Shown: positions 3,801 to 6,897 of the stretch, piece by piece
How the letters are laid out: each line of letters starts with the position of its first letter
How positions within the stretch are numbered: position 1 is the first letter of the stretch
Assembly (NCBI GenBank): GCA_026709025.1
Contig: JAPOTT010000032.1
Location: 1 to 64,000, forward strand
Length of the DNA stretch: 64,000 bases
Direction: 5' to 3'
DNA from: a bacterium
GTDB lineage: Bacteria > Actinomycetota > Acidimicrobiia > Acidimicrobiales > Bin134
The notes under the pieces: generated by a model
What the model was told of the DNA's origin: nothing
The model's input: the letters and a program-made list of their open reading frames with translations, nothing else
Databases searched by the model: none
Program-made: the position numbers and the translations under genes

Positions 3801-4163
3801 CAATTCGTTACCAGCATTCTTGAAGACGATGGATGGACGGTTCAGGATGTGCACACTATGAACTGCGGCTACGATCTCCATGCAGTGCGTGGTGCTGAAC
3901 AGAGATGTGTAGAAGTGAAAGGCCGTGCCGGGCAGGCATCTAGCAGTGGGATATCCTTAACTGGAGGCGAACTGCTACGAGCCAACCAACTTGGTGAGCA
4001 GTATTGGCTGTACGTTGTAGACAACTGCATAGACGGTATCGGCCAGCTTTTTGGAAGATGGCAGAATCCTGTGGCAGTATTCGAGGAATGGCTCAAAGAT
4101 GTACCTGTGTATCAGCTTGCTGGAAGCAAACTCAAACAAGCCTTAGGTAAACAAGCAAACTAA
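825..4163 (+). CDS. SNF2/HepA-like DEAD/DEAH helicase with C-terminal DUF3883-like domain
   Basis: GTG start; Walker [9 protein letters not shown], DEAH (IIFDEAHRM), [42 protein letters not shown]; C-terminus [49 protein letters not shown] resembles DUF3883. Confidence 0.9.
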   Translation: [1112 protein letters not shown]

Positions 4164-6897
4164 TGACCATAGCAGGCTCCCCCCCCCACGGCTGATTGAG
4201 GAATGGTTTCCTTGCGCTGAGGTTTCTAGAGAATCTGCTAGTGGGTGGGGTAAAGGATGGGCAGAGAAAAGCCTGTTTACATGGTTTGCATCGCGCCCTC
4301 TAGCTCAGGCAAAAGCAGCGGTCATTTGCTCGCTGCTGCCCTGGCCCACAAACACTGCCGAACAGGAAGACCTTAAGAAGCTTGTAGCTAGGTCCATGGA
4401 GGGCTACGACGAGGCTAACACCGAGCTTCGTAAAAAACTCGCTGAACATTACCCAAACGGTGCCCGCATGTGCGATCCGTTCTCGGGGCGGGCGATGATT
4501 TCCCTTGCCGCTGCTCGGCTTGGCATCCAATCTTGGGGCATCGACTACTCGCCTGTTGCCACCCTCGCTGGGCTTTTATTGGCCGACTACCCCATGCGCG
4601 ACTGGGATAGCGAACCCGACCTGCCCTTTGACGGCTATGACCAGCACAAAGCCGACTATTTCACCGAGCCCAAGTTGCTCAAAGATGTCCGCTTCATACT
4701 CGGTCTGATCGGCCAACGCTATGAGCAAGTGATGGAAGAGTTTTACCCGACAGTTAATGGTAAGCGCCCCTGGGGATATGTGGGGGCGGTCACCCTACCT
4801 TGTGTGAACTGTGGCAATCGATTTCCTCTAACTGGAAGTCTTGCCTTGCGAAACCCAAACCTCAAGAAGAACGACCCGGGCCAGTCCTACAGGATTATCG
4901 CAAACAAAGACACTGGATTTTTTACCACCGAAGTTCACGATGGCCCGCCCCATTCTCAGCCGACACTTGTGAAAATCACGGGCGGCAGAGGCAAGACCGC
5001 TGTTTGTAGTTTCTGCGGCCATGCCCACACGCTTGACACGCAAAAACGGCTTATGCGAGATGGCTTCAGGGATGATGCCATGCTTGTGGTTGCCGACCTA
5101 GATGACGAGGTAGGTAAACGGTATCGAAGACCCACAAATGTGGAAAACGAGGCATTTGCAGATGCAAGCAAAGCTCTGACAACAGAGCCAGATTTCGGAA
5201 TAGGTTTGCCTGCAATTCCAAACGAAACGCTTAACGCTGGATTATCTGCATTTATAGGCCCGGCAGGATACGGCTATAACAGCTGGGGGCAGTTGTGTAA
5301 CGATCGCCAAACCCTCGGCTTTGTGCGACTTGCCCACATCATAAACACACTGTGTGGTGAACTGCTAGTTGCCAGAATTACTAGCGACTATGCCGCCGCG
5401 CTCACTGGCTATGCAGCCTCCAACCTAGCTCGGCGAATAACGCGAAGTACTCGAAACTGCACTCTTAATGTCTCCGTACAAGCCACGGGACACATTTACT
5501 TCAACGACTCAGGTATCTCACACAGCTTTGATTATTTTGAGACTGGCTGTGGTTTAGGCCCTGGTACGTGGGGCTCGCTAGGAGTCCATACAATCCGGAA
5601 TCTTGGCAAGCAGGTAAACGGAAGAGTGGCCGGGCAACCGGCTGTTATCCAGCGCGGCTCAGCAATGGACATACCATTGCCAGATGGCGTTTTAGACGCA
5701 GTAGTTACCGATCCACCCTATGACGCGATGATCAACTACTGCGATTCCTCTGACCTCATGTATGTGTGGCTGAAGCGGGCGCTTAGTTCGGCATTTCCGT
5801 GGTTTGGGCTTACTACAGATCCAAACGGTTTGCAGGAAAAAACAAACGAGGTGGTAATCAAGTTTGGGGCCATTGGCAATGATCATCGCACCGAAGCCCA
5901 CTACAAATCCTGCATCACCAAAGCGTTCGACCAAGCTCGCCGCAAAACCACTCCAGAAGGGATAGTCACCATTGTTTTTGGGCACGGCGACCCAGACGCT
6001 TGGGTTCGGGTGCTCACTGCGATTGCCGATGCCGGGCTCGTGTTAACCGGGTCTTGGCCGTGTAGCACCGAGAAGGGCGGCAAGCAGACTGGAGCATACA
6101 TCGACAACACCATCGTTATGGCATGCCGACCTGTGCCAGCCAACCGCCCTGTGGGTGATATTCGTATAGTCGACGAGGAGATCCGAGCTGAGATCGCAGA
6201 TCGTGTGCCAGTTTGGTCGACAGATGGGCTGGCCGACTCAGATCAGCGCATGGCGGCGATAGCCCCGGCGATGAAGGTAGTTGGACGATATAGCGAGGTG
6301 CGGGACTTCACGGGCCGTCCTGTGGGGATAGATCACTTCTTGGGCTTGGCTCACAAAGCGGTTGAGGAGGCTGCCGACGTGAGGATCAACGTCTTCCGCC
6401 TCGCTGATTTTGATAGTCGCACCCGGTTCGCTCTGTCGTGGGCTCGCCAGCACGGCCGCAACAAGGCCCCTGCTTCAGAGGCCCGCTGGCAGCGCCTTTC
6501 TTACGACATGTCTGAATCTGCGGTGCAGGGCTTATTGGTCAAAGAAAAAGGCGGGGTTCGGCTCGCGTTCTGCTCTGAAACAGCGTCGGGAGTTGATCTT
6601 CATCCGGGAAGCGACATTATCGACATAGCGTTGGCGGTGGCTTCCAAGGGGCGCTCGCTGAGTGACATCGCTAATGCCTTACACAGCTTGGGTAGGGAGA
6701 ACGACGAAATGTTGTGGGCGGCGCTGGAGGAGATGGTGCGCCTTGTCGGCGAAGGCGACCCCGACGGACAAGTATGGGCGTGGACTATTCGTAATCGCGA
6801 CCCAATCCGCAAGCGAGTCACTCGTTCACGTAGCGAGCAGGAACGCGAGGATAGTCGTAAGGCGGCTCGGGATAGAGAACAGACGCTGTTTGGATGA
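4163..6897 (+). CDS. DUF1156-type adenine-specific DNA methylase; frame interrupted near the 5' end by a C9 tract (possible phase-OFF allele)
   Basis: Core ORF contains CDPFSGRAMISLAAARLGI, zinc-ribbon CxxC pairs (CVNC...CSFC) and VVTDPPYDAMINYCDSSDLMYVWLKRAL. Conserved N-terminus RLIEEWFPCAEVSRESASGWGKGWAEKSLFTWFASRPLAQAKAA lies in frame upstream of the track's ATG 4396 (codons from 4189), with no ATG/GTG/TTG before it in that frame. ATG 4163 is one frame off because of C9 at 4179-4187. Confidence 0.85.

Follow-up and report, generated by a model that had tools for sequence, protein, structure and literature searches.

Hma was proposed as a helicase-methylase-ATPase system distributed across 26 phyla (PMC8565338), and has been re-filed as a DUF499-centred, BREX-related system with an N6-methylase (PMC12839542). 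The relevant passages of these two papers give the same three-gene composition as that found at the present locus (helicase, N6-type methylase, DUF499 ATPase), and they do not mention phase variation. The genome examined here differs in holding five hmaB genes in 2.2 Mb, most of the systems being associated with G/C tracts. Phase variation has been described for pglX in Streptomyces, where a G8 tract is ON and a G7 tract is OFF, disabling Pgl, with switching at 10^-2 to 10^-4 (PMC4365076); this is the pglX G-tract precedent to which the initial annotation had appealed. Both cases involve an actinobacterium, the methyltransferase of a multi-gene defence system and a short homopolymer in coding sequence, but the system described here is an Hma/DUF499 operon without PglZ or PglW, and its C run lies at the start codon. 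Phasevarions, in which type I and type III methylases of host-adapted bacteria are switched by slippage in hsdM, hsdS or mod, offer a second comparison: the same genes bear tracts in this genome, although the host is an uncultured member of the Acidimicrobiia and not a well-studied pathogen. No report of such a switch in Hma, or in the Acidimicrobiia lineage, was found in the literature searched.

The window (the whole stretch of DNA analysed, 64,000 nucleotides) lies on a 184 kb contig of an assembly of 2.2 Mb in 56 contigs. All three operon genes are on the forward strand. hmaA (825-4163) encodes an SNF2/DEAD helicase in an intact frame, with Pfam domains Helicase_C, SNF2-rel_dom and a C-terminal NOV_C, and PADLOC HmaA as its best match (6.5e-91). 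hmaB (4189-6897; PADLOC HmaB, 3.2e-38) is a DUF1156-type methylase body of 902 codons with no further stop, lying out of frame with the ATG at 4163. DUF1156 scored 26.7 bits in a six-frame search, over the cut-off, and 21.7 against a cut-off of 24 when searched as a protein; the translation holds the motifs of an N6-methylase, TDPPYDAMINY (DPPY) and DPFSGRA. hmaC (6917-9898; PADLOC HmaC, 8.8e-31) encodes an intact DUF499 AAA+ ATPase, assigned also by Pfam DUF499 and synteny, and its start is placed by inference at GTG 6917, the mechanical open reading frame beginning at 6662. Since HmaA, HmaB and HmaC were each the top PADLOC match at their own gene, and the three genes are adjacent in one operon, the locus is by its architecture a predicted Hma system (Type-1 BREX-related), and the defence module with a DUF1156-type methylase that had been proposed earlier takes this identity from PADLOC and Pfam together. 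The BREX/Pgl gene set (PglZ and BrxC/PglY with PglX) is absent from the operon, which holds helicase, methylase and DUF499 ATPase only; the BrxC and PglX models gave weak matches there.

The features that the initial annotation had read at the hmaA/hmaB junction were all recovered. The helicase stop TAA (4161-4163) overlaps an ATG (4163-4165) as TAATG, and in the assembled state the frame from this ATG is a short open reading frame (4163-4195, forward strand) reading MTIAGSPPHG, 10 codons, before TGA at 4193-4195. The C run spans exactly 4179-4187 on the forward strand, with T before and A after, 5 codons past the ATG. Behind TAG at 4144-4146, the methylase frame runs open from 4147 to its stop at 6897, and between 4147 and 4396 it contains no ATG, GTG or TTG, only near-cognate CTG or ATT codons (4192, 4195, 4273, 4324, 4333 and 4336); a start at 4396 would cost the methylase its first 69 residues, including the DUF1156 region. 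When tract lengths of 6 to 14 were computed, 7, 10 and 13 gave a single open reading frame of 910-912 aa, so that one added C does yield the continuous frame to 6897 that had been anticipated, and lengths 6, 8, 9, 11, 12 and 14 gave peptides of 9-13 aa. A change of one unit at C9 thus shifts the frame between a full-length and a shortened product, as in phase-variable genes. An exact search for the junction sequence in viral contigs returned no match.

C9 is interpreted as a hypermutable tract that toggles hmaB by replication slippage, a candidate switch to which we assign a probability of about three in four. Under this reading, slippage to C7, C10 or C13 would join ATG 4163 to the 902-codon methylase body and turn HmaB ON, and at other lengths HmaB would be OFF. 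OFF cells would still make HmaA and HmaC, but not HmaB. In BREX and Pgl the methyltransferase is needed for marking and restriction alike, and by analogy OFF cells would lack marking and effective restriction, so that the whole Hma system may be reversibly disarmed in a fraction of the population. C9 would be one of many contingency loci in the genus, concentrated in defence methylases, surface proteins and integrases. Counting against a switch are the length of C9, low among the tracts of this genome and close to what random sequence could give, and the junction itself, where none of the eight orthologous loci with a 5' end has a tract. By itself, C9 exceeds the compositional expectation weakly, Markov models expecting 8-20 such runs per 2.2 Mb; because a single run of 9 is unremarkable, the case for a switch rests on the placement of the run and on the genome-wide pattern.

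Across the genome, about 50 C/G runs of at least 9 were counted against 3 A/T runs of at least 9. Markov models built on the window predict 8-20 C/G runs of at least 9 and 0.1-0.5 of at least 12, and the sequences read gave 52 and 35, respectively; once the runs in clusters, next to gaps or at contig ends had been set aside, 28 of at least 9 and 14 of at least 12 were left. Among 41 genomes of the order, those of the genus had 3-86 C/G runs and the others 0-12, and the density in the genus ranged, by species, from about 1 to 24 per Mb. Tract-bearing genes in the window's genome comprised three hmaB, one hmaC (contig 38), three hsdM, one hsdS, two type III methylases, drmD (the DISARM helicase, contig 49) and surface proteins with Calx-beta, fn3 or laminin-G domains. 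The five hmaB (DUF1156) genes of this genome (G000) are on contigs C4, C10, C12, C17 and C38, and four of its five Hma systems have a C/G run of at least 9 in hmaB or hmaC. hmaB is broken at G18 on contig 10 and at C13 on contig 12. Of 21 methylase genes in three families (5 DUF1156, 6 N6_Mtase and 10 N6_N4_Mtase), 8 bear a tract, either within the gene or within its extended frame, where 0.7 would be expected (P about 3e-7, an approximate value that uses estimated gene lengths, an approximate genome share and an estimate of 38 independent tract loci). HsdM on contig 54 and the type III Mod on contig 44 are in frame across their tracts (ON), and HsdM on contig 4 and DrmD on contig 49 are out of frame (OFF); genes in both states stand side by side in one genome, as a random switch would leave them.

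A sequencing or assembly error, with a true tract of C10 (or C7) and hmaB simply intact, is the alternative that survives best, and is judged unlikely. Some runs in the genome adjoin N gaps or contig ends, a sign that the assembler struggled at homopolymers, and some reef-sponge metagenome-assembled genome (MAG) data come partly from two-colour NovaSeq or NextSeq instruments, which are poly-G prone (PMC8163846), though the platform here may differ. C9, by contrast, is isolated, without Ns, on a 184 kb contig; the window has a coding density of 0.96, with hmaB the only split long gene noticed; four independent assemblies of relatives break hmaB at G tracts only; and even a miscounted C9 would still mean a tract of hypermutable length at the start codon. 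The lengths of clustered runs beside Ns (contigs C16 and C44, and part of C10 and C4) were treated as unreliable and set aside. Homopolymers do break the assembly, since the sequence at the end of contig C27 (L074) recurs at the start of contig C12 (L088) and holds a C12 run; several tracts are no more than 120 bp from a contig end. A two-colour poly-G artefact as the source of all tracts was rejected: 28 tracts are isolated, gap-free and have unique flanks, many are in defence genes, four hmaB tracts occupy one homologous site, and G16 and G25 runs occur in two single-contig relatives.

Orthologous loci were compared in other genomes (one genome per species), where nine loci encode a methylase 67-78% identical to that of the window, the 5' end being present in eight. 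At the closest, L104, the junction reads ATG GCA CCC CGG ATG ATC GAG against the expanded C run of the window. As none of the eight has a homopolymer at the start junction and L104 has only CCC, the window tract is specific to its lineage, and a short run of C is its probable origin. Comparison of the junction therefore gave a divided answer on the switch that the initial annotation had placed there: the relatives lack the homopolymer and have intact frames at that point, but four carry a tract elsewhere in hmaB and are broken at it. In these four (L107, L108, L109 and L110), tracts of G10, G13, G18 and G11 occupy one homologous internal site, at which orthologues without the tract show a gap of ~16 nt, and it is exactly at the G tract that hmaB falls into two frames. 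HmaC is unbroken in all four, as is HmaA in both of those loci holding hmaA; wherever fully assembled, the HmaA and HmaC frames of the orthologous loci are intact, and gene order is conserved. The tract-free L103, L105 and L106 have an intact hmaB (a break in hmaA of L106 is an N gap), and none of the four tract-free orthologues (L103-L106) has a frameshift in hmaB. The window hmaB gave a dN/dS of 0.056 against L104, and three tract-bearing orthologues gave 0.04-0.10 on both sides of the tract, so that the window gene, although out of frame, is under purifying selection. Because the tract loci break exactly at the tract, the tract-free loci do not, and both halves are under selection, loss of frame in hmaB follows the tract; the comparison supports an hmaB that has repeatedly become phase-variable, with a tract site that differs by lineage. 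In L109 (2195-2380), the G-tract segment of hmaB is duplicated locally (G18 and G13, about 170 bp apart).

That hmaB is a recent pseudogene, its indel fixed and the system decaying, is quite improbable on this evidence. Loss of hmaB does occur, since in L104 (6001-8727; G012, contig C12) an in-frame TAG interrupts the gene about 157 codons in, within a divergent stretch, but the window gene combines its low dN/dS with the lack of any other stop, its lesion coincides with the gene's only long C run, and random decay would not be expected to break hmaB at tracts time and again in other species, where the site is a different one. A further alternative, in which ribosomes or RNA polymerase slip in a programmed manner on the C run and so make full HmaB from C9, is very improbable. 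As it would predict, each of the seven HmaB genes whose tract is unambiguous is out of frame in its assembly, but L107, L108, L109 and the contig C12 copy need one shift direction and L110 the opposite. The tracts also vary in length (9 to 18), in position and in whether the coding strand has C or G, which does not resemble a tuned slippery site, and in-frame tracts are present in other genes of the genome.

The phase-variable reading of C9 must itself accommodate the seven of seven OFF assemblies, which, with one gene in three ON, would come about by chance some 6% of the time (the G016 hmaB was left out of the seven, its tracts lying beside an N gap); this could be chance, selection for OFF, or frameshifting in use. 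The OFF allele of a phase-variable methylase that the initial annotation had suggested is supported by the four G-tract-broken orthologues, by the breaks in hmaB on contigs 10 and 12, and by near-identical alleles within the genus, ON and OFF, that differ in length at a C tract alone. These alleles were found at a tyrosine-recombinase gene that opens ATG AAT CAC and continues into a C run, the same layout as the window hmaB, with a C run within a few codons of the ATG. Over 3 kb around this gene, three genomes (loci L189, L198 and L212, of G010, G019 and G012, respectively) are 98.6-99.2% identical, and the sole indels of the stretch are in the C tract, of 18, 12 and 16 nt. Reading from the ATG, only the allele with 16 C keeps the frame (ON); those with 18 and 12 C are OFF. 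The locus is strong evidence that slippage happens in nature, though short of final, because homopolymer noise in the assemblies could add to the length differences; near-identity in three species-level genomes suggests a mobile element with a phase-variable recombinase.

MutS (PF00488) was found in 0 of 22 genomes of the genus and was missing in 18 of 19 other genomes of the order, compared with its presence in 11 of 14 control genomes. NucS, the actinobacterial substitute for MutS, does not correct indels (PMC8228993). The missing MutS is a possible reason for the build-up of long C/G runs, and without MutS-type mismatch repair the lineage would tolerate slippage. The odds are about even for the joint claim that this genus without MutS randomises, cell by cell and through G/C-tract contingency loci, its surface proteins, its integrases and an anti-phage repertoire of several Hma systems, type I, II and III restriction-modification and the DISARM helicase. 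From isolate names, this genus of the Acidimicrobiia is probably sponge-associated.

C9 is thus a well-supported candidate for a phase-variable switch, within an unusually rich set of such loci. If this is right, Hma/BR joins BREX-type Pgl and classical restriction-modification among phase-variable defences, the shuffling of immunity across a population reaches uncultured actinobacterial symbionts too, and hmaB, hsdM and drmD in such MAGs may be called pseudogenes though merely switched off. Within the 64 kb window there are no C/G runs of 7 or 8, one C9 and two G10, and the operon interior has no C/G run of at least 7 other than C9. Both G10 runs are isolated and intergenic, one at 9960-9969, downstream of the operon just past the ends of hmaC and a DUF2079 gene, and the other at 53401-53410, upstream of a small open reading frame at 53592; they are possibly promoter or neutral tracts.
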